From Okeania sp. SIO3B5 (lineage in GTDB: Bacteria > Cyanobacteriota > Cyanobacteriia > Cyanobacteriales > Microcoleaceae): DNA of 64,000 nt. Below the pieces are notes generated by a model, which saw only the letters and a program-made list of their open reading frames with translations, was not told the origin of the DNA and ran no database searches. The translations under genes and the position numbers were made by a program. The DNA lies in assembly GCF_010692555.1 (NCBI RefSeq), contig NZ_JAAHHG010000003.1, forward strand, positions 1-64,000, in the 5' to 3' direction. Below are positions 4,989 to 63,073 of the stretch, piece by piece (position 1 is the first letter of the stretch; the number at the start of each line of letters is the position of its first letter).

Positions 4989-5132
4989 TTTGGCAGATGA
5001 GGGTAATTTTTTGTCAATTTAATTAGAGAAATTTTGTCTTTAATATCTTGTCTTGGCAATTATAGCAACCGCCAGGTTGGTGTTTGACAATTAGTGCGAG
5101 CATCTTGCTCGCATCATGAATTATCATTGTTA

Positions 5133-5259
5133 TATCATGTCCGGTTGAATACTTACATTTTGGAGAAGGTAAGGCAGAAGGCAGGAGGCAGGAGGCAGAA
5201 GGAAAGAAAAGGTTAGAAGGGAAAAGGTTTTTTTATCACGCTATTATCCGGACATGATA
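5133..5259. mobile_element. MITE, TATCATGTCCGG family, 127 bp
   Basis: Left end TATCATGTCCGGTTGAAT, right end ATTATCCGGACATGATA. It is flanked by TTA at 5130-5132 and 5260-5262, a perfect 3-bp target duplication. The core is a purine-rich minisatellite of GGCAGAAGGCAGGA type. No coding capacity. Confidence 0.85.
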
Positions 5260-5631: not shown

Positions 5632-7959
5632 TTACGAACTAACTTTGATTGTAATCTCAATCTTATTTGCAGCAGAGGGAACACGCCATTTTAAAAGCGA
5701 TCGTTTAATTTCCTCTACAATTTTTTTATCCTTCAAAGTAGAAACTTCATCATCTAAAATTACTCGAAGTACGCGTTCGCCTTTTACCTGCAATTCCAAA
5801 ACTATTTCACCATGAATATTTGGTGGTAAATTCATATTCTGTAGATGCTGTTGCAGATTTTTTTGCCCTGCTGCATCCAATCCCTTTACCTGAATAATTT
5901 GTAAGGAAATATTGGTTGACTTTGTATAATCTGGCTTTTTCCTCTTTGCTCTCATTCCCTGTAAAGACTTTGCACCAAGGGAAATTCCTCTTTCCCTTTC
6001 CTCATTCATCCAATCTGTTGCTTGAGGTGCTGTTTCCATCATAAGTTGAGAAGACTCTAACCTCATATATTGCACTTGCTCACTACGAGGTGCTAGAAAT
6101 TCTATATTTTGTGGAGATGCTGCCCCCAAAATCCCCTCATAACTCACTCCTTCAGGCATTTCCACAGGAACTTCCATCGAAATACTCTTACCACCAGGTT
6201 CAACACGCACATCTTCGCTCACCGCAACAAACGCCGTATATTCAGACAACAATTGATAACTCAAAGCAGTCTCCGTCACCTCTTTTACCATCGACTTCTT
6301 ATCATAATCAAACATCTGATTCATCAAATGCTTAATCTTTTGCCTGGCCCAAATTTGAGCAACTGCCACATTACCACTCTCAGCAAAATGAATATCGAAA
6401 GTCTGCTGATAAATTTCCCCACCAGCAGCAATACCATTAACCTGTAACTCACCTCCCACAGCATCCTGTTTGTGCCCAAACAAAACCAAAGGTTGTTCGG
6501 CAAATAAATCTGGAGTTGTCACCGGATAAATTTCTGGTACTTCACCCCAACCATTCCACTCAACCTCAATTTGAGTCAATACAGGATTATTTATTTGCTG
6601 GAAAAATTTCTCTGCTACTTCCTCAGTCGGTTCATCCTGTCGCACAACCCTGGCAATACCCCGCCCAATTTCTGCCAAACGGTTAATCAAATATCGATTT
6701 ACAGAACTACCAACACCAAAACTATAAAGTCGGTTGCCTGGTTGGAGTTTGTCTTGCACTTCTGCCAATACTGCTTTTTCATTACCAATATAACCATCAG
6801 TCAACATTACAATACTCCGTAGTCTTCCCGCAGGTGGAGGCGGAAATTGCAATACTTCCTGGATGCCATTCAGTAATTCAGTGCCACCATTTGCATTTAA
6901 TTTGTTGATATAGTTAATTGCAGTGGCAATATTTTTAGGTGTATTCGGTAGAGGTTGTTCTGACAGTTTTCTGGTAGTATTGGCAAAGTCGATAATTGTG
7001 AAAGTGTCGTTGGGGTTAAGTCCGTGAATAAAACGGCGCATCAATTCCTGACATTTCAACAATGGTTCTCCCCTTTGGGAACCGGAAGTATCCATGAGGA
7101 AAACTACATCTTTCGGCACAATTTCATCGCTGCGATACCGTAAAGCGGGAATTAGATAAACGGCAAAATATCCCCCACATTGATCTGCTTGAGTTAATAC
7201 TGTTGCTTTGGTACGATCGCTAGCAACTTGATAGCGGAGAATGAAGTCTTTATTAGGGATGGTGTCTTCATTTCCTAATTTAACCGTAACAATTTCTCTT
7301 CGCTCGGATGTTTGAATTTGGTGGGATATGGAATTCACCTGAAAAATTGGCATCCCACAGTCTATTTCTACTGTCATACCAATATCATGTCCCGAACGAG
7401 TTGCCGGGGGAACTATTGGTGGTGTAATTTGACTAGCATCAGGAACTTGATCTGTATCACCACTTCCATCTATAGAGGTTCCTGGAATATAACGATCTCC
7501 CACAACCATCGGAAATACAAATTCATAGTCTCCACCTTCAAATTTGAGGGAGTCTGTATAGCGAATAATTACATCTATTTGTTCCCCTGGTTTAATATTT
7601 GCCAGGGACTGAGTGAAAATATTATCGCGCTGTTGTTCGAGTAACCCTGCAGTGCGTCCTTGTTGTTTAGCTTGTTGATAGATTTTTTTTGCTTCTTCTC
7701 GTTTTTTGATATTACCTTTGATTAAGCGATCGCCGATTTTGATTTCCATTTCATCGACTGCTGCTTCATCTGGTAATGGGAATACATAGGTTGCTTCTAG
7801 GGGTTCGGTGAATGGGTTTTCAAATTGTTGAGTTACTTGGACGCGGGATAGGTTGCCCGCTATTTTAGCTTTAACTTCCGTGTGTTTGAGCGGAAAAGTC
7901 AGTTTCTCTTCTGAGGAGAAAACGTATAATCCTGCAAGAGTTGGTGTATTTGTAGACAT
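5632..7959 (-). CDS. VIT domain and von Willebrand A domain protein
   Basis: 775 residues. Residues about 1-140 form a VIT domain (the inter-alpha-trypsin-inhibitor heavy-chain type N-terminal domain), with VTQQFENPF and ATYVFPLPDEAAVDEMEI as typical VIT signatures. A VWA domain follows from about 283, with the metal-binding MIDAS motif DTSGS at 290-294 and a second acidic motif, TDGYIGNE, about 100 residues later. The C-terminal 150 residues are polar, ending in a strand-rich region. No signal peptide or transmembrane helix is obvious, so a cytosolic adhesion or scaffold role is possible. Such proteins are common in filamentous cyanobacteria, but their function is mostly unknown. The start ATG at 7959 fits the VIT domain beginning near residue 8. 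It stands alone, with 740 bp of repeats upstream. Confidence 0.9.
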   Translation of the reverse strand: MSTNTPTLAGLYVFSSEEKLTFPLKHTEVKAKIAGNLSRVQVTQQFENPFTEPLEATYVFPLPDEAAVDEMEIKIGDRLIKGNIKKREEAKKIYQQAKQQGRTAGLLEQQRDNIFTQSLANIKPGEQIDVIIRYTDSLKFEGGDYEFVFPMVVGDRYIPGTSIDGSGDTDQVPDASQITPPIVPPATRSGHDIGMTVEIDCGMPIFQVNSISHQIQTSERREIVTVKLGNEDTIPNKDFILRYQVASDRTKATVLTQADQCGGYFAVYLIPALRYRSDEIVPKDVVFLMDTSGSQRGEPLLKCQELMRRFIHGLNPNDTFTIIDFANTTRKLSEQPLPNTPKNIATAINYINKLNANGGTELLNGIQEVLQFPPPPAGRLRSIVMLTDGYIGNEKAVLAEVQDKLQPGNRLYSFGVGSSVNRYLINRLAEIGRGIARVVRQDEPTEEVAEKFFQQINNPVLTQIEVEWNGWGEVPEIYPVTTPDLFAEQPLVLFGHKQDAVGGELQVNGIAAGGEIYQQTFDIHFAESGNVAVAQIWARQKIKHLMNQMFDYDKKSMVKEVTETALSYQLLSEYTAFVAVSEDVRVEPGGKSISMEVPVEMPEGVSYEGILGAASPQNIEFLAPRSEQVQYMRLESSQLMMETAPQATDWMNEERERGISLGAKSLQGMRAKRKKPDYTKSTNISLQIIQVKGLDAAGQKNLQQHLQNMNLPPNIHGEIVLELQVKGERVLRVILDDEVSTLKDKKIVEEIKRSLLKWRVPSAANKIEITIKVSS

Positions 7960-25839: not shown

Positions 25840-26020
25840 AATCTTGAAGAAGGCAGAAGGCAGAAGGCAGGAGGCAGAAGGCAGGAGGCAGAAGGGAAAA
25901 TTGCATGGATATAGTCAACGATCGCCCACGCGTGTGTCTGATGCCCCAAACAATTTTAAGCATCCCCCTTGCTTAACCGAACTGATAACTGATAACTGAT
26001 AACTGATAACTGAAATGACG
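25840..26020. repeat. Minisatellites between pipX and pipY
   Basis: GGCAGAAGGCAGGA units (25850-25898) and AACTGATAACTGATA units (25978-26012). In many cyanobacteria pipX and pipY are adjacent and co-transcribed; here repeat expansion separates them. Confidence 0.85.
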
Positions 26021-27714: not shown

Positions 27715-28226
27715 TAGCTAGTGCCGCTACGCGGAAGTCAAAACTCAAAAGTCAAAAGTCAAAAGTATTGATTGATAAGGCTTTTAGGATTTTGTAACCA
27801 GTTATTTCCGCTGTCCTGCACTAGGGAATTTTGGGTATGGGATCGCAAACAAATATAATTAGCGCTAATAATTATATATATCTAATACCAATTCACTCTA
27901 AGGATGTCACAAATAGTCTGCAACTGATGATGTGGAATAATAGGGTGAAATTATTGTGTAGTTAACACTTTAAGTCTATCAACTTTTACTTCTGACTTTT
28001 GACTTCTGACATCTGTGAAACGGTATAAGAACCCATCCCTAATTCCCTATTTATCTTGGAAATTTGGTAATTGGGAAACCACCCTCTTTTAAGCGGTGGA
28101 TGGAAACGACGCGACAGGTTTTAGCCCGAAGATATTCTTGATCTCAAGTCTCCTTATTACAGGAGGTACTGATAGCGTAGCTCCTCCGCTAGGAGGCTAA
28201 CTGATAACTGATAACTGATAACTGAA
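27715..28226. other. Intergenic between sepF and proC
   Basis: AAAAGTCAAAAGTC units (27745-27765), GACTTTTGACTTCTGAC facing units (27995-28015), a TAGCGTAGCTCCTCCGC short palindromic repeat (28170-28190) and AACTGATA units before the ATG. No gene. Confidence 0.6.
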
Positions 28227-37024: not shown

Positions 37025-40000
37025 TTAACCTCTCAAACCCGCACAAATAAAACCACTCCAATATATCGGATGGGCGAAAGGATGTTCCTCTGCGCTCTTT
37101 TGCTTTAAGTTTTCAATTGTTCTGCCAATGCGATCGTAAATTTTACCTCGCTTCTCCCGTTCTTTCTGCCACTGTTTATATTCTGGGGAATCTTTGGGGT
37201 AACTGTCGCGCTGCTTTTTTGTTTCTCGAAACCTTTCGTAGGCTTCCTTTAATTTCTCTCTTAGAGCTTTCTCCAATTCCTTTCCATACTTCTCCTCAAG
37301 CTCTTTCCCAGTTAACTGTCGCAATTTCTGTTGAGCAAGTTGCAAGGCTTGGGGACGATTTTTACCTGCTAGGCGTAGTTGATGGTAAAATACTGAAAAT
37401 AAAGAAGTGGCTAGATCGTCCACTGACCAAAGGCTACTAACTGCCCCCCTGGCTCCCGCACATAAAAACCCTGTGTTCAAGGTCATCATGTTATCGCTGA
37501 TGTCTGTGCTTCCAAGGTTGGTTTCGCAACAAGACAGGAATACTTCATCTAAGTCTGGAAAACGGAACGCAGGAGATAATAGCTGCCCCAAGGTTATTCT
37601 GCCATCGGCTAAGATGAGGGCAGATTCGAGGCTGTTGTCGAGGCGAGATTGGGCGTGATGGGTTGATAGTAACCGTTGCACTTGGGGCAAGAGTTTTTTG
37701 TACTCGTTGACAGTACCTTCGCTGCCTTTAAGATATTGGCTGTCGGCAACTTGGTACATTTCGGCAACTTGTCGTCCTTCGTAGCTGGAATAGTATAGGT
37801 CTTGGGTGGTGTTTTCGACGATGCCGTAGGTGGGAGAGTTGGTTGCCAGGGGTGGACGCTGGTGGCAGAAGTCGAGAACTTGACAGCTTGCCTGGGTGCG
37901 GATGAGGAATTTGTCGCCGAAATATTGGTTGTTTGCCAGGGGTAAGACAGCAAAGGGAATTTGATGCAGGTATAAATGGGGGATGAGGATTAGTTCTTGG
38001 ATGCCTTCTAATTTCTCTACTAATTTATCTAATTGCAACCACCGACTGATTTCTGCGAATTTGCCTGGCATCTGTTGATTCCATTCGTTATCTAACCGTT
38101 CTTTTTCCTGTTGCCGTAATTCCCTAAATTTGGTTTTGTCCACGGTGTGAGAGGTTCCATCTTTAAGAATGACGGTCACTTCTGTCTCTTCGAGCTTCCA
38201 GAATTCAATTGCCTCCACCTCGCACCCTAACAACTGAGCGGCGGCAATGAAACCGGGTAAGTAGGATATCTCGGCATAAGATTGTAACCAGTTGTTGCGC
38301 AACCATCTTTGTAGCTCTCTGTAACCTTGCCCTTGACAGGTATGCACATCGACTCCACTCCGTCGTACTATGAAAGCGTGGGTGTGTTCGTTGGTACTGT
38401 AAAAGCTGAGGATGGCGGTGGTGTCGTCTTCTATGAGTTGCTGCAATTTGGAAAATTCCAAAGGGGTAACTTGAATCCCTTCCGCCAAGACTTGGTCGAA
38501 TTTGCGAATGTCACGGTAAACTTCCTGCTTTTCAACTTCTAATTTAGCTATGGCTTCATTTGTTGCTCCCCAGGCAGCACGTTGGTGGGTGGCGGTAGCA
38601 GCATCTATAGTTTCTCGGTTGTTTGGGGATTGCTTGGGGAACCTCAAGCGATCTATTTGCCGTTCCAAAGATTCAAATTGCTGCAACAGTTCCTCTGCTT
38701 CTAGGGGGATTTCTCCTTTGTGGTAAAGGTCTTTACTTGCCATGAGGTCAACTAACTGCCGACTGCGAGAACGTTCGGCGTATGCAAAAGCTTGGGAGTA
38801 TTGCTGGAGGTTGACGAAGCATTGAACGATGTTATCGTAAACTTCAATCGCATCTTTGAGGATTTCTTGACGGCGATCGTCGTTTTTTGACCAACTGCGA
38901 CTGAGTTCCACTGCGGTGATGGCTTGTTTGTAGGTATCAATAGCAGATTGCCAGTTGCCTTCCTTGAAGTGGAGTTCGCCTAAAACACGGGAAGTGTTGA
39001 GACATTGAACAGGATTCGCTTCTGGGGTGTAAACTTCCAGAGCATTTTTGCAGGCAGTAATCGCCATTTCTTGATTTTCTGCCCTATCTCCTTTGATTCT
39101 GTCTTGGTAGACTAAACCAAAATTATTCTGAGTCATTGCCCAGTTCCAAGGGAAACCATCTTTGGTGGAAACTTCTAGGGCATTTTGGAAGGCAGCGATC
39201 GCCAATTCCAGATTTTCGGCCCTGTCTCCTTTGATTCTCTCATAGTAGGCAGTGCCCAAATTATTCTGAGTCATTGCCCAGTTCCAAGGGAAACCATCTT
39301 TGGTGCAAACTTCCAGAGCATTTTGGAGGGCAGCGATCGCCAACTCCAGATTTTCTGCCTTGTCTGCCTTGATTCTCTCTCTGTAAGCATTCCCTAAATT
39401 AATCTTAGTCATTGCCCAGTTCCAAGGAGAAGTTACTTTAGTGTAAACTTCCAGAGCATTTTGGAGGGCAACGATCGCCAACTCCAGATTTTCTGCCTTG
39501 TCTCCTTTGATTCTCTCTATGTAGGCATTGCCCAAATTAATCTGAGTCATTGCCCAGTTCCAAGGGAAAGCATCTTTAGTGGAAACTTCCAGAGCATTTT
39601 GGAGGGCAGCGATGCCTAACTCCATATTTTCTGCCCTGTCTCCTTTGATTCTCTCTCTGTAGGCATTCCCCAAATTAATTTGAGTCATTGCCCAGTGCCA
39701 AGGGGAAGTTACTTTAGTGTAAACTTCCAGAGCATTTTTGCAGGCAGTAATCGCCAATTCCATATTTTCTGCCCTGTCTCCTTGTATTCTCTGGAAATAG
39801 GCATTGCCCAAATTAATCTGAGTCATTGCCCAGTGCCAAGGGGAAGTTACTTTAGTGTAAACTTGTAGGGAATTTTGGGAGGCAGCGATCGCCTTTTCCA
39901 AATTTTCGGCTCTGTCTCCTTGGATTCTCTCAGAGTAGGCTAAACCCAGATTAATCTGAGTCATTGCCCAGTCCCAAGGGAAACCATCTTTGGTGTAAAC

Positions 40001-42775
40001 TTCCAGAGCATTTTTGCAGGCAGTAATCGCCAATTCCAGATTTTCAGCTCTGTCTCCTTGTATTCTCTGCCAGTAAGCATTGCTCAAATTCATCTGAGTC
40101 GTTGCCCAGTCCCAAGGGGAAGCATCTTTGGTGTAAACTTCCAGAGCATTTTGCCAGGCAGCGATCGCCAACTCCAGATTTTCGGCTCTGTCTCCTTTAA
40201 TTCTCTCAGAGTAGGCTAAACCCAAATTTATCTGAGTCCCTGCCCAGTCGTTAGGAAAAGCTTCTTGGGTGCGTACTTCCAGAGCATTTTTGCAAGCAGC
40301 GATCGCCAACTCCAGATTTTCTGCCCTGTCTCCTTTGATTCTGTTAGAGTAGGCTGAACTCAAATTATTCTGAGTATTGGCCCAGTCGATAGGGAAGGCT
40401 TCTTTAGTATGAACTGAAAGAGCATTTTGGTAGGCAACAATGGCTAATTCCAAATTGTCGGCTCTGTCTCCTTTGATTCTGTTAGAGTAGGTTAAACCCA
40501 AATTCATCTGAGTCATTGCCCAGTCACTAGGGAAAGCATCTTGGGTGCGTACTTCCAAAGCATTTTGGTAGGCAGCGATCGCCTTTTCTAGATTTTCTGC
40601 GATGTCTCCTTTAATTCTGTCAGAGTAGGCATTGCCCAAATTATTCTGAGTCATTGCCCAGTCCTTAGGGAAGGCTTCTTTAGTGCGAACTTCTAGGGCA
40701 TTTTGGTGGGCAACAATGGTTAATTCCAAATTTTCAGCCCTGTCTCCTTTGATTCTGTCAGAGTAGGCCGAACCCAAATTAGCCTGAGTATCTGCCCAGT
40801 CTTTGGGGAAGGCTTCTTTAGTGCGAACCTCTAGAGCATTTTTGCAGGCAGCAATAGCCAATTCCAGATTTTCTGCCTTGTCTCCTTTGATTCTGTTTTG
40901 GTAGAAAATAGCCAAATTATTCTGAATCGCTGCCCATTTGTTGGAGAAGCCACCTTTCGTGTAAACTTCTAGGGCGTTTTGGTAGGCAGCAATGGTTAAT
41001 TCCAAATTTCCTGCCCTGTCTCCTTTGATTCTCTCAGAGTAGGCTAAACCCAAATTAGTCTGAGTCGCTGCCCAGTCCTTAGGAAAAGCTTCTTTAGTGC
41101 GTACTTCCAGAGCATTTTTGCAGGCAGCAATAGCCAATTCCAGATTTTCTGCCTTGTCTCCATTGATTCTGTCTTGGTAGAAAATAGCCAAATTATTCTG
41201 AATCGCTGCCCATTTGTTGGGAAAGGCTTCTTTAGTACGAACCTCTAGGGCATTTTTGCAGGTAGCAATAGCCAATTCCAGATTTTCTGCCCTGTTTCCT
41301 TTGATTCTATATCCGTAGGTTAAACCCAAATTATTCTGGGTATCTGCCCATTTGTTGGGAAAAGCTTCTTTTGTGCAAACTTCCAGAGCATTTTGGTAGA
41401 CTGCAATCTCTAACTCTATATTTTCTGCTGCGGCTTTGTCGTCTCCCTCTGCTTTCATTTGTTTGACTAGAGAAAAGTAAGCATTACCTAAATTATTCAG
41501 GCAGAAAAGTTCTCCCTCCAAGTCTTTCAACTCCCTACAGATAGTTAAAGACTGTTGATGAAATTCAACCGCCTGCCCATATTGCCCCAAAGAGTGGTAT
41601 ATCTCACCCAAAAGACCTAGAGAGCTTGCCTCCCCTGGACGATCTTTGAGTTCCCGCTTGATTTCTAGACGCCGTTCCAAGAACTCTATTGCCCGCTCGT
41701 ATTGCTCTAGGGAATTGTACGCCAAACCCAGATCGGTTACGGAATCATCCTCCCCTTTAAGGTCTTTAAGCTCTTTACTGATAGTTAAACGCTGTTGATA
41801 AAATTCTATCGCTTTTTCATGTTGACTCAAAGAACGATAAATGCTGCCCAGTGTCTCCAACGAGTACGACTCCCACTGAAGGTTTTTAATTTCTCTAGCA
41901 CCAACCAATAATTTTTGTTCCCACTCCAAAGACTGCTCATATTGCTCCAAAGACCGATAATTAAGACCTAAATTATAGAAAGAAACACATTCTCCCCACC
42001 GATCTTTAATTTCCTGTCTAATAACCAAGGATTTTTTATGGCAAGCGATCGCCCCTTCGTATTCTTTCAAACTATTACAAACATTACCCAAACCATTAAA
42101 AGCATCAGCCTTCCCTTTAGCATACCCGATCGCCTCAGCAATACTCAAAGCCTCTTGATAATAACCCTTTGCCTCCTCATATTTCCCCAAAGAATTATCC
42201 ACCGCCCCCAAGCCATTAAGCGCATCAACCTCTCCTTGACTATATCCAATTTTCCTAGCAATAGCCAAAGACTCTTGATGCAGAGCGATCGCTCTTTCTT
42301 TCTCCCCCAAACACCGACAACCTTTACCCAAACTATTTAGAGCCTCAACCTCTCCTTGACAGTCTGAAAGTTCTCGATATATGGTTAAACTCAGTTCAGA
42401 AAATTGTACCGCCTCAGAAAACTGACTAATTTCGTATTCGTGCCTCCCAATTTGACTCAAAACATCCGCAGTTTCCTGCCTCACAACCGCCTCTCTCTCA
42501 GAACTTCCCAAAACCTCCCCCACTTGCAGCGCCAGACTTAACAGGGAATTTGCCTTGTCCCAATTTTTCTTATCCCTCAAACTTTCCGCCTCCTGCGCCA
42601 TTACCTCCAATAACTCCGGCGTAGCTAGCTCTTGGTGGCTGTTTAAAACCTCCTGAAATTCTGCCCCACTGGTAGAACCCCTCGGACAATTGAGCAATTC
42701 TATAATCAACATTAAATAAGCTTGTTGCCCTTGAGATGCTTTTTCAGCCTTTGGTTCCCCAAATCCTTTTGCCAT
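37025..42775 (-). CDS. Giant TPR-CHAT protein with 17 near-identical repeats
   Basis: 1916 residues. About 450 residues of ordinary 40-residue TPR units (YHSLGQYGQAVEFHQQSLTI type) are followed by 17 full copies and one partial copy of a 46-residue unit. Its consensus is NALEVYTKDAFPWNWAMTQ then NLGNAYxERIKGDRAENLEL. Then comes a normal TPR and a C-terminal CHAT protease domain. The predicted catalytic dyad is His1706/His1707 (STHHAQ) and Cys1750 (LSCCETNLG), with WSVDDLATSLF after it. CHAT domains are caspase-like proteases usually switched on by their TPR part; some act in phage defence or regulated cell death. No gasdermin-like target is encoded next to it. No signal peptide, so cytoplasmic. 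ATG at 42775 gives MAKGFGEPKAEKASQGQ. Confidence 0.93.
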   Translation of the reverse strand: MAKGFGEPKAEKASQGQQAYLMLIIELLNCPRGSTSGAEFQEVLNSHQELATPELLEVMAQEAESLRDKKNWDKANSLLSLALQVGEVLGSSEREAVVRQETADVLSQIGRHEYEISQFSEAVQFSELSLTIYRELSDCQGEVEALNSLGKGCRCLGEKERAIALHQESLAIARKIGYSQGEVDALNGLGAVDNSLGKYEEAKGYYQEALSIAEAIGYAKGKADAFNGLGNVCNSLKEYEGAIACHKKSLVIRQEIKDRWGECVSFYNLGLNYRSLEQYEQSLEWEQKLLVGAREIKNLQWESYSLETLGSIYRSLSQHEKAIEFYQQRLTISKELKDLKGEDDSVTDLGLAYNSLEQYERAIEFLERRLEIKRELKDRPGEASSLGLLGEIYHSLGQYGQAVEFHQQSLTICRELKDLEGELFCLNNLGNAYFSLVKQMKAEGDDKAAAENIELEIAVYQNALEVCTKEAFPNKWADTQNNLGLTYGYRIKGNRAENLELAIATCKNALEVRTKEAFPNKWAAIQNNLAIFYQDRINGDKAENLELAIAACKNALEVRTKEAFPKDWAATQTNLGLAYSERIKGDRAGNLELTIAAYQNALEVYTKGGFSNKWAAIQNNLAIFYQNRIKGDKAENLELAIAACKNALEVRTKEAFPKDWADTQANLGSAYSDRIKGDRAENLELTIVAHQNALEVRTKEAFPKDWAMTQNNLGNAYSDRIKGDIAENLEKAIAAYQNALEVRTQDAFPSDWAMTQMNLGLTYSNRIKGDRADNLELAIVAYQNALSVHTKEAFPIDWANTQNNLSSAYSNRIKGDRAENLELAIAACKNALEVRTQEAFPNDWAGTQINLGLAYSERIKGDRAENLELAIAAWQNALEVYTKDASPWDWATTQMNLSNAYWQRIQGDRAENLELAITACKNALEVYTKDGFPWDWAMTQINLGLAYSERIQGDRAENLEKAIAASQNSLQVYTKVTSPWHWAMTQINLGNAYFQRIQGDRAENMELAITACKNALEVYTKVTSPWHWAMTQINLGNAYRERIKGDRAENMELGIAALQNALEVSTKDAFPWNWAMTQINLGNAYIERIKGDKAENLELAIVALQNALEVYTKVTSPWNWAMTKINLGNAYRERIKADKAENLELAIAALQNALEVCTKDGFPWNWAMTQNNLGTAYYERIKGDRAENLELAIAAFQNALEVSTKDGFPWNWAMTQNNFGLVYQDRIKGDRAENQEMAITACKNALEVYTPEANPVQCLNTSRVLGELHFKEGNWQSAIDTYKQAITAVELSRSWSKNDDRRQEILKDAIEVYDNIVQCFVNLQQYSQAFAYAERSRSRQLVDLMASKDLYHKGEIPLEAEELLQQFESLERQIDRLRFPKQSPNNRETIDAATATHQRAAWGATNEAIAKLEVEKQEVYRDIRKFDQVLAEGIQVTPLEFSKLQQLIEDDTTAILSFYSTNEHTHAFIVRRSGVDVHTCQGQGYRELQRWLRNNWLQSYAEISYLPGFIAAAQLLGCEVEAIEFWKLEETEVTVILKDGTSHTVDKTKFRELRQQEKERLDNEWNQQMPGKFAEISRWLQLDKLVEKLEGIQELILIPHLYLHQIPFAVLPLANNQYFGDKFLIRTQASCQVLDFCHQRPPLATNSPTYGIVENTTQDLYYSSYEGRQVAEMYQVADSQYLKGSEGTVNEYKKLLPQVQRLLSTHHAQSRLDNSLESALILADGRITLGQLLSPAFRFPDLDEVFLSCCETNLGSTDISDNMMTLNTGFLCAGARGAVSSLWSVDDLATSLFSVFYHQLRLAGKNRPQALQLAQQKLRQLTGKELEEKYGKELEKALREKLKEAYERFRETKKQRDSYPKDSPEYKQWQKEREKRGKIYDRIGRTIENLKQKSAEEHPFAHPIYWSGFICAGLRG
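39000..41410. repeat. 138-bp tandem repeat inside the TPR-CHAT gene
   Basis: The 46-residue units are conserved in DNA as well: TGTCTCCTTTGATTCT and CTGAGTCATTGCCCAGT recur every 138 bp over about 2.4 kb. Such similarity implies recent expansion or gene conversion within the array. It is prone to copy-number change and assembly error. Confidence 0.9.
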
Positions 42776-58792: not shown

Positions 58793-58953
58793 TAAAGTCA
58801 ACACTTAACAATAAACCGATCGTCGAAGTATACAAAACTCCGGACACTGCAGATTATTTTGGAATTATCAAGTACAATTCCTTCATAAATTCAAGAACTC
58901 AGCTAAAGATTACAACTATTTAATTAAAATTATTAGCCATGAGGAAGTTAATT

Positions 58954-59169
58954 ATGCAAGAACCTCGAAAAAAGCCACTTTTTACAGAACTGAACTATAA
59001 AGAATCTACCTACATAAATGGTGGTTACAATGAAAATTATCAATATCGCCGTAATTTTTTAGGTTTTCAACTTTGTCCTCGTAGTTATTATGGTGATAAC
59101 CGCTACTCTTCTGACTACCAACGTTATAATTCTAATTACTATAAAGGGAATATAAAAGGCTACTACTAA
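58954..59169 (+). CDS. Double-glycine-leader peptide 1, Tyr/Asn-rich
   Basis: I start at the ATG at 58954, with GAGGAAG 8 bases before it; the frame also allows an ATG at 58939. 71 residues: leader MQEPRKKPLFTELNYKEST then YINGG, aligning with MQET..ELFSELSTEESATINGG of peptide 3. The core after GG is YNENYQYRRNFLGFQLCPRS followed by a Tyr/Asn/Ser-rich tail ending GNIKGYY. One cysteine. The ELxxxES...INGG leader is the kind cut by C39-peptidase ABC exporters (bacteriocin-type). The core is more divergent and less basic than those of peptides 2 and 3. 57 bp upstream of GAGGAAG is the inverted pair GGAATT / AATTCC (58861-58881), which has a counterpart before peptide 2. Confidence 0.75.
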   Translation: MQEPRKKPLFTELNYKESTYINGGYNENYQYRRNFLGFQLCPRSYYGDNRYSSDYQRYNSNYYKGNIKGYY

Positions 59170-59944: not shown

Positions 59945-59946
59945 AA

Positions 59947-60074
59947 TATTATGTCCGGATAATTAGTGATCAAAAAACTTTATCCCTTCTAATCTTTTCT
60001 TCCCTTCTAATCTTTTCTTCCCTTCTGCCCTCAGCATAGCTGCCTTCATTGTAACTATTCAATCGGACATGATA
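59947..60074. mobile_element. MITE, TATCATGTCCGG family, 128 bp
   Basis: TATTATGTCCGGATAATTAG to ATTCAATCGGACATGATA, TAA at 59944-59946 and 60075-60077 (perfect duplication). It abuts the preceding element and precedes the second peptide gene. Confidence 0.85.
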
Positions 60075-60194
60075 TAACTCAGACAAATAATTATCCGGAT
60101 ATTACCCACTTATGAAGAATACTTAACTGTAATTCCTCCTATATATAGGAATTATTAAACATGACAAATGTAATTAAACTTGAGGAAAATCTTC

Positions 60195-60384
60195 ATGCAA
60201 GAAACAAAAAAATAATCAACTATTTACTGACATTTCTTCAGAAGAATCTGCCACTATTAATGGTGGTCATGGCTATTATCATCGTCGGCATTACAGTTAT
60301 GGCTATCGTCGTTATTACCGTAGTCGGCCTGTACGTTACTACTCCCGTCGTCGCTACTATGGCTATAGGTATAACTGCTACTAA
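60195..60384 (+). pseudogene. Double-glycine-leader peptide 2, Tyr/Arg-rich, frameshifted at A7
   Basis: ATG at 60195 (TTGAGGAAAATCTT before it) reads MQETKK and then stops, because a run of seven A (60206-60212) shifts the frame. With six A the frame reads MQETKNNQLFTDISSEESAT then INGG, and aligns position by position with the leader of peptide 3. The core after GG has 38 residues, starting HGYYHRRHYSYGYRRYYRSR and ending YRYNCY: 14 Tyr, 11 Arg and one Cys. A 30-bp stretch coding for EESATINGGH is identical in DNA to peptide 3. Either a recent inactivation, slippage-dependent expression or a sequencing error. The overlapping open frame at 60161-60397, encoding a hydrophobic protein, is the wrong frame. 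Confidence 0.8.
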
Positions 60385-60406
60385 TTTCAACTTATGAGTT
60401 GAATTC

Positions 60407-60583: not shown

Positions 60584-60802
60584 ATGCAAGAAACTCAAAA
60601 CACTGAATTATTTTCCGAGCTTTCTACCGAAGAATCTGCCACTATTAATGGTGGTCATAATTTCGATGATTGTTACGGTTATGGTAGTTCTCGACGTTAT
60701 TATCGTCGCCCTGTTAGTTATCACTACCGTAGTTATTACTATAATCGTCCTGTACGTTACAGCTACGGTTATCGCAGTTATGGACGTTACGATTGCGACT
60801 AA
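60584..60802 (+). CDS. Double-glycine-leader peptide 3, Tyr/Arg-rich cationic core
   Basis: 72 residues. Ribosome binding site AAGAGGATAATCTT before the ATG. The leader, MQETQNTELFSELSTEES then ATINGG, is a bacteriocin-type double-glycine leader, to be cut after GG by a C39-type peptidase domain of an ABC exporter. The 48-residue core begins HNFDDCYGYGSSRRYYRRPV and ends SYGRYDCD: 14 Tyr, 9 Arg, 2 Cys, one near each end, so a disulphide or other cross-link is possible. SYHYRSYYYNRPVRYSYGYR is internally repetitive (a YxRPV motif twice). A clear terminator follows. No export or modifying enzyme gene is intact in the window; a HlyD fragment lies 3 kb upstream. It may be a cationic antimicrobial, a matrix or signalling peptide, or a substrate for tyrosine modification; function unknown. 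Confidence 0.85.
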   Translation: MQETQNTELFSELSTEESATINGGHNFDDCYGYGSSRRYYRRPVSYHYRSYYYNRPVRYSYGYRSYGRYDCD

Positions 60803-60857: not shown

Positions 60858-60886
60858 AGCACCTATAGTTTTATAGGTGCTTTTTT
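60858..60886 (+). terminator. Rho-independent terminator after peptide 3
   Basis: AGCACCTATA / TATAGGTGCT, a perfect 10-bp stem with a GTTT loop, followed by six T. It ends the transcript of the third peptide gene. Confidence 0.92.
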
Positions 60887-61049
60887 ATAACAATTGAATT
60901 CTGAATACTGGAATTTAGACTAATTGACACTCTCATTGTTAAATCAAAGATTATAACGGGAGATTCTTGTTTTGCTGAGGCAAAGCTGCGCTAACCCAGA
61001 TTTTTAACTAGGCAACAAATCAAACAAGTTGAGTTGTACCCCCGTTTAT

Positions 61050-61670
61050 CAAGCGCCAATTATTAGGTGTGTGGAGGGAAAATATTTACTTTTCCTCTCT
61101 GTTGCGGATGTCGCAATAGTCATTTCATTTTCTCAAGCACCAATTATTAGGTGTGTGGAGGGAAAATATTTACTTTTCCTCTCTTTGTTGCGGATGTCGC
61201 AATAGTCATTTCATTTTCTCAAGCACCAATTATTAGGTGTGTGGAGGGAAAATATTTACTTTTCCTCTCTGTTGCGGATGTCGCAATAGTCATTTCATTT
61301 TCTTAAGCACCAATTATTAGGTGTGTGGAGGGAAAATATTTACTTTTCCTCTCTTTGTTGCGGATGTCGCAATAGTCATTTCATTTTCTCAAGCGCCAAT
61401 TATTAGGTGTGTGGAGGGAAAATATTTACTTTTCCTCTCTTTGTTGCGGATGTCGCAATAGTCACTTCATTTTCTCAAGCACCAATTATTAGGTGTGTGG
61501 AGGGAAAATATTTACTTTTCCTCTCTGTTGCGGATGTCGCAATAGTCACTTCATTTTCTCAAGCACCAATTATTAGGTGTGTGGAGGGAAAATATTTACT
61601 TTTCCTCTCTGTTGCGGATGTCGCAATAGTCACTTCATTTTCTCAAGCACCAATTATTAGGTGTGTGGAG
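61050..61670. repeat. 84/86-bp structured tandem array, seven copies plus a partial eighth
   Basis: Units start (CAAGC[AG]CCAATTATTAGG) at 61050, 61134, 61220, 61304, 61390, 61476, 61560 and 61644, giving periods 84, 86, 84, 86, 86, 84, 84. The only length difference is an extra TT before GTTGCGG. Each unit has three small inverted repeats: CACC..GGTG, GGAAAA..TTTTCC and TTGCG..CGCAA. Substitutions are few (CATTTC/CACTTC). It ends a few bases into the next gene's leader. No variable spacers, so not CRISPR. Reading frames across it are not conserved, because 86 is not a multiple of 3. Confidence 0.93.
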
Positions 61671-62209
61671 ATGTAACAAACCCATACTGACACTTATGTT
61701 TTCAATTCGGATAGCAAAAAATTGGTCTACTACGACTATTCAGATGAGAAATATAGAAAACAGGATAGTCCCTCCACCCCAACCTCTCTGCTTAACTGAC
61801 TTCCATACTCTTTGTCAAGAGCGCTATCTCCCGCCGAAGCCCTCTCCTGAAGACTTGGCTCATTTTCCCCCCAATACTTTAGGTGGTGCTTATTTCCAAT
61901 ATATGTGCGATGGAAAATTTTATGAATTTGACAAAAATCCGACGACCCCGAACTCAGAGAGTGAGTGGCTTATGGGTTTGTTGCGTCAGACTCATGATTT
62001 TTTCCATTTGATGGCAGAAATTTATCATTATGGTTGGGATGGAGGATTTGTTGTTTATAACGATCCCAAATCTTATGAACGAGATTTACTTGTTCATGCT
62101 GAAGAAATATGTATCTATAGTTTCATACTTGGTCAATGTCGCCTGAAAGCTGCTATTCCAATTGTGGCTGAATGGAGCAATACTGTTATGAAAAATGGTT
62201 CTATATGGG

Positions 62210-62766
<557 letters not shown>

Positions 62767-62771
62767 ACTAA

Positions 62772-62875
62772 TATCATGTCCGGTTAAATAATTAGACTTT
62801 GGTGGAAGGAACGCAGAAGCTTTTTCCCATTGTCACCTTAATTTTATACACGCTCCGATGCTACCGGAGATGATA
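62772..62875. mobile_element. MITE, TATCATGTCCGG family, 104 bp
   Basis: TATCATGTCCGGTTAAATAA to GCTACCGGAGATGATA. The sides read TAA and TTA, so the duplication is not perfect. It lies between the N-terminus of the MATE relic and the NrtR-like relic and truncates the latter. Confidence 0.8.
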
Positions 62876-63073
62876 TTAGATCAACTTTATGCAAGTATTT
62901 TAGGAAACAATTTTTCAGATTATTCTAATTTTCGTGCCAAACTACTAAAGTTAGGTTTCTTATCTGATACTGGGGTAAAAACATCTCGGGGTGCAGGTAG
63001 ACCAGCTAGTCTTTATCGATTTAATTCTGAGGCATTCGCTTTAATTAAAGATAAACCTTTAATATTTATTTGA
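62876..63073 (+). pseudogene. C-terminal winged-helix fragment of a NrtR/Nudix-type regulator
   Basis: After the MITE the frame reads LDQLYASILGNNFSDYSNFR then KLLKLGFLSDTGVKTSRGAG and RPASLYRFNSEAF. This is the tail of NrtR-like Nudix proteins (FRRKLLKLG...TGxK...GRPAxLYRF), which regulate NAD metabolism. The Nudix domain itself is gone and the apparent start (62858) lies in the MITE. Confidence 0.7.

Follow-up and report, generated by a model that had tools for sequence, protein, structure and literature searches.

Intergenic tandem arrays sharing a palindromic core form a lineage-specific satellite family in Okeania and two related genera

Heterocystous cyanobacteria carry tandemly repeated LTRR units of about 37 bp and STRR units of 7 bp, each of uniform sequence, and they also possess NsiR1, a series of tandem near-identical small-RNA genes. 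The small dispersed repeats of cyanobacteria treated by Elhai et al. in 2008 are said, in the title of that paper, to be mobile. Direct repeats of the TAACTGA heptamer form unexplained intergenic sets in Beggiatoaceae and cyanobacteria (PMC4679880). REP/BIME sequences, comprising the GTAG and CGTC super-families, are short intergenic palindromes present in many copies, which can reiterate in tandem together with flanking DNA (PMC3733652).

Here we compare with these systems a family of tandem arrays, one of which lies in the window, i.e., the whole stretch of 64,000 nucleotides of Okeania sp. SIO3B5 DNA that was analysed. Like LTRR and STRR, the Okeania arrays are multi-locus intergenic tandem repeats confined to one cyanobacterial lineage; going by the general descriptions of those repeats, they are set apart by units of 41-280 bp that are locus-specific and have only a palindromic core in common. 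As in NsiR1, near-identical units stand in tandem in a filamentous cyanobacterium, but the Okeania arrays occupy many loci with differing units, and neither a conserved RNA structure nor a promoter in each unit was found in them. With the repeats of Elhai et al., as far as the title of that paper describes them, they share small size, the lack of a tag and filamentous hosts, and differ in being vertically inherited and tandem. They are intergenic direct-repeat sets, as are the cyanobacterial TAACTGA heptamers, which, however, are 7-bp units without a palindrome (PMC4679880).

The array in the window consists of seven near-identical 84/86-bp units and part of an eighth (Table 1). This had been reported in a first-pass annotation of the DNA and was confirmed unit by unit, the TRF call being 61045-61670 (period 84 or 170, 97% matches, score 1149). 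The optional TT named there as the main difference between units was confirmed, alongside three single-base variants (GCGCC/GCACC, TCATT/TCACT, CTTA/CTCA); as each of these is common to a subset of units, the pattern is such as stepwise tandem duplication leaves. All three inverted repeats ascribed to the unit are present in every full unit, and exact matches of the third, the core palindrome, run from 61102 to 61612 (last copy) at a spacing of 84/86 bp. It also holds that the entire unit repeats, without unique spacers, which distinguishes the array from CRISPR, and that it fits no known repeat family: an Rfam scan of the whole window returned tRNA only, with no match at the array, and no earlier description of the array family was found in the literature searched, key papers on cyanobacterial repeats lying outside that search. 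A coding array was considered and rejected. The alternation of 84- and 86-bp units breaks the reading frame, in line with the absence of frame conservation noted earlier; the ORF at 61407-61676 results by chance from two 84-bp units, and the ATG of a possible reverse-strand mini-ORF in the unit is not retained in sister arrays.

Table 1. Positions of the array, its units and adjacent features in the window.
Feature	Position	Strand	Length	Basis or remark
Tandem array, seven 84/86-bp units + 25 bp	61052..61670	+		TRF, unit-by-unit alignment, genome search
Unit 1	61052-61135		84 bp	
Unit 2	61136-61221		86 bp	
Unit 3	61222-61305		84 bp	
Unit 4	61306-61391		86 bp	
Unit 5	61392-61477		86 bp	
Unit 6	61478-61561		84 bp	
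Unit 7	61562-61645		84 bp	
Partial eighth unit	61646-61670		25 bp	
Hairpin 1 (GCRCC..GGTGT), first copy	61053..61070	+		Lacking or changed in several of the sister arrays
Hairpin 2 (GGAGGGAAAATATTTACTTTTCCTCT), first copy	61073..61098	+		Stem not kept between arrays; 72% of cells paired, no excess covariation
Core palindrome TTGCG-GATGT-CGCAA, copy 1 of seven	61102..61116	+		In all family arrays
Conserved tail TAGTCATTTCATTTTCTCAAGCAC, first copy	61117..61140	+		Unit alignment
Terminator-like stem-loop of preceding peptide gene (60584-60802)	60858..60881	+		
Right flank ATGTAACAAACCCATACTGACACTTATGTTTTCAA	61671..61705	+		Also 3' of array in Okeania sp. SIO1I7, there leading into glycogen phosphorylase 3' end
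Coq4-like gene	61735..62277	+		Pfam PF05019, 27 bits vs cut-off 22.9; outside repeat family

The window array is one of about 20 related intergenic arrays in the SIO3B5 genome (11.06 Mb, 789 contigs), a count based on a genome search with one unit followed by TRF and a core search at twenty of the matching places. Units are 41 to 280 bp long (TRF periods of 41, 44, 49, 59, 63, 68, 74, 79, 85-86, 119, 129, 158, 169 and 280 bp). The element common to all arrays is the palindrome TTGCG-N5-CGCAA, while the remaining unit sequence differs; its loop is mostly of the form KATRY or the reverse complement, and the consensus round it reads TRTTGCG-N5-CGCAATAG. ATTGCGN5CGCAAT matches the genome at 77 sites, a reversed-pattern control at 0. 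Solitary cores are nearly absent (3 near-matches in 184 kb outside arrays). Array types can be told apart by the sequence adjacent to the core: in the window type, with units of 68-87 bp, the core is followed by TAGTCATTTCATTTTnTGAAGCAC; a second type, with TAGGAGTTTTTGCTCAGT and units of 41-63 bp, occurs in all five Okeania species; and types with longer units are present as well. One array with units of about 74 bp (L018:1965-4317) carries the second hairpin in both loop orientations (TTTCA-TTCTC-TGAAG and TTTCA-GAGAA-TGAAG).

Comparison with Okeania sp. SIO2B3, SIO1I7, SIO2C9 and Okeania hirsuta revealed the family in all five Okeania species, where each genome has 99-216 strand hits of the core pattern. 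Five of the seven genomes of genus g7 have 4-162 strand hits, and one genome of genus g8 (G011) has 41; the rest of the 62 family genomes have 0-2 each, and none was found in 291 other genomes sampled over the phylum. Tandem cores also occur in Hydrocoleum sp. CS-953 and in a Microcoleaceae bin. Viral contigs yielded nine single hits and no arrays, and 18-mer matches in non-cyanobacterial genomes were single only. The arrays are a lineage-specific intergenic satellite family of Okeania and two related genera, with units arranged head to tail, homogenised within arrays and varying in number between relatives, as in satellites or VNTRs.

Judged by flanking proteins, the arrays stand at the same loci in different species. 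The window array has orthologues in all four relatives (L038, L044, L048, L053), and there are six further orthologous groups. Named neighbours of the arrays include RF3, glycogen phosphorylase, biotin ligase together with a laccase-like protein, methyltransferases, and a Bmp-type binding protein; the RF3-locus array is also found in G021, a member of another genus. Unit identity is 0.88 within the same array and 0.79 between orthologous arrays. Between loci it is 0.616 in the same species and 0.624 in other species, and this near-equality means that there is no exchange between loci. Copy numbers, taken from draft assemblies, which can misstate them, are 12, 6, 3 and 8 cores at the RF3 locus, with one degenerate single unit in G002, and 8, 7 and 14 at the biotin ligase/laccase locus, where in one species an IS605-type tnpB element separates the two units present. 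The outer units showed no clear excess of divergence (0.883 vs 0.88-0.91). The family is vertically inherited with concerted evolution, being homogenised inside arrays and not between loci, with copy number free to change. Arrays may be favoured insertion sites for IS605-type tnpB elements; such genes lie in or beside arrays at three loci of the relatives (L051:3983-5203, L049:3961-4920, L041:72-1031).

Between loci the core stem has an identity of 0.913, which exceeds the 0.80 obtained for the remainder of the unit between orthologues, and the tail, likewise between loci, reaches 0.83, a small excess over the same orthologous background; constraint is read here from averages over non-independent pairs, without a formal model. 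As the loci split before the species and do not exchange sequence, the core identity points to constraint on the palindrome, and less surely on the tail. Over 25 arrays, conservation at the tail positions (columns 1-24 in the alignment of units) is mostly 72-100%, and when the RF3 array is compared with that of another genus, the tail is 97.5% identical, the rest of the unit 71%, and flanking DNA about 77%. The constraint on the core would not be strict, the stem being broken in several arrays (L011, L013, L018, L043). Inversion of the core loop with respect to its flanks was seen in 39 of 212 units, and both orientations are mixed within arrays L010, L011, L012, L055 and L056; template switching at a DNA hairpin would produce such an inversion.

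We consider it somewhat probable (roughly 0.55) that the arrays represent a hairpin-prone, lineage-specific DNA satellite with a constrained core, perhaps a protein-binding site. Replication slippage or unequal recombination between units would lengthen, shorten and homogenise the arrays, and core hairpins formed in single-stranded DNA would assist these processes, the exact loop inversion being their footprint. Less certainly, selection would maintain the core stem and, to a lesser degree, the tail next to it, a protein or hairpin-recognising factor using them as DNA, so that the array would be a platform with many binding sites and not an RNA gene. A protein-binding array had been among the first proposals for this locus, together with a partition-like site; the former is a candidate reading, favoured by the apparent constraint on the core palindrome. 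For either, no shared candidate for a binding protein was found among the array-neighbour genes; those examined are unrelated and belong to metabolism or translation. The genomes of marine, filamentous relatives of Trichodesmium are large and contain a good deal of non-coding DNA that is unexplained. The family is a concrete, testable piece of that DNA, in which core and tail appear to be kept while the spacer drifts, and its mapped loci provide variable-number markers. Together with a cognate protein, should there be one, the arrays would make up a hitherto undescribed binding system spanning the genome.

The main rival is a neutral or selfish satellite, whose hairpin-forming palindromes would keep re-amplifying with neither a binding factor nor a host function. 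Concerted evolution and the loop inversions agree with it, as do the free changes in copy number, down to one or two units (L051 and the RF3 locus of G002), the absence of the array at the same locus in some relatives, and the lack of any rule in array position, arrays lying in front of, behind and between genes. However, a core stem better conserved between old paralogous loci than the spacer is between orthologues, with no exchange between loci, speaks against neutrality, as does the long persistence of the RF3-locus array across two genera. We regard this as a serious rival, though on balance rather unlikely. More doubtful still is an extension of the constrained-core satellite, in which the approximately 20 inherited arrays, with their many copies of one palindrome, would be genome-wide docking platforms for a dedicated protein that binds DNA or hairpins and serves to organise or regulate the chromosome of Okeania/Hydrocoleum, in a new kind of multi-locus centromere-like or nucleoid-anchoring role.

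The first-pass annotation had also suggested a tandem array of three-hairpin small RNAs. Tandem small-RNA genes of the NsiR1 type, or a long structured RNA, would fit the three hairpins visible by eye and the folding of a single unit at -23.3 kcal/mol, significantly better than that of shuffled sequence (z about -3.3). Structure tests, for which 29 sister-array units of the 83-87 bp type were used, speak against this proposal. The covariation score of the three-hairpin structure was reached by 118 of 500 shuffles, and the number of pairs with both sides changed was matched by 474 of 500; the RNAalifold consensus contains only 4 pairs, all in the core, and individual sister units fold into different shapes. 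Moreover, there are 68-69 bp units without hairpin 1 or hairpin 2, and no promoter-like site was found within the window array. The small-RNA proposal was not borne out, and an RNA function of either kind now seems very unlikely. The same annotation held that a simple satellite would be indicated by a lack of transcripts and of conserved relatives together with stems broken as often as loops, and here the answer is mixed: conserved relatives exist, which is against a simple satellite, whereas stems 1 and 2 are freely broken, which is for one. What was found is satellite-like with a constrained core.

An equally improbable role is that of transcription terminators or BIME-like clusters at transcript ends, in which hairpin 3 and its T-rich tail would stop RNA polymerase. 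The order of core hairpin and T-rich tail does score terminator-like several times in the window array, and array groups 1, 3 and 4 lie between convergent genes; however, the arrays of the biotin ligase/laccase locus, of group 6 and several others of SIO3B5 lie between divergent genes, where no transcript would enter, stem pairs are broken in several arrays, and the orientation of the array is inconsistent with the reading gene at L018. Mobile palindromes of the REP/REPIN type, spread by a REP-associated tyrosine transposase, are likewise very unlikely: the Okeania cores are, like REP/BIME (PMC3733652), short, palindromic, intergenic, present in many copies and in tandem with flanking DNA, and the SIO3B5 genome has 20 Y1_Tnp matches, but no core lies within about 1.5 kb of any of the 20, as it would beside a RAYT flanked by its repeats, the GTAG/CGTC tag is absent round the core consensus, the cores occur almost only in arrays instead of as dispersed single or paired copies, and the orthologous loci are stable across species.

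The surroundings of the window array agree with the initial description, a terminator-like stem following the peptide gene on one side and a Coq4-like gene lying downstream on the other. In relatives, the array is located between convergent peptide genes and glycogen phosphorylase. In SIO3B5 the left flank diverges from the relatives at 60923, and the right flank (ATGTAACAAACCCATACTGACAC...) is still orthologous and ends after about 35-40 bp, giving way to strain-specific DNA. None of the four other Okeania genomes has the Coq4-like gene, and the glycogen phosphorylase gene of SIO3B5 is on another contig, its fetched flanks containing no core. Given a strain-specific gene, a displaced phosphorylase and flanks that break off, the Coq4 neighbourhood is, judging from these alignments, a recent change unrelated to the repeat family. 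A rearrangement inside the array that imported Coq4 was rejected, as the right end of the array agrees with that of the orthologue, the break following about 35-40 bp further on. Beside the Coq4-like gene, on the opposite strand, is a truncated MatE gene (62210-62569).

Small peptide genes at 58939-59169, 60161-60397 and 60584-60802 are kept beside the array in the Okeania relatives, and two of the peptides have a double-glycine-like leader (INGG) and Tyr/Arg-rich tails. MITE-like segments bounded by ATATCATGTCCGG..CCGGACATGATAT occur on both sides of the region (59946-60085, 62571-62725, 62770-62876), and copies resembling them lie near the array end in L044. Another short MITE-like element, with ends like TATAGCAGTTGYCAAGGCGCTT, was found in relatives, either at the margin of the array or in the stretch that separates it from the gene (L048, about 5030-5250 and 6150-6190; L038, about 6550-6590). 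The window also contains runs of the TAACTGA heptamer and many other 7-bp tandem repeats (e.g., 28198-28225 and 25980-26013), similar in kind to those of Beggiatoaceae and cyanobacteria (PMC4679880). Finally, 17 copies of a 138-bp repeat (80% matches) at 39027-41428 probably encode a repeat protein, as the period is divisible by 3.
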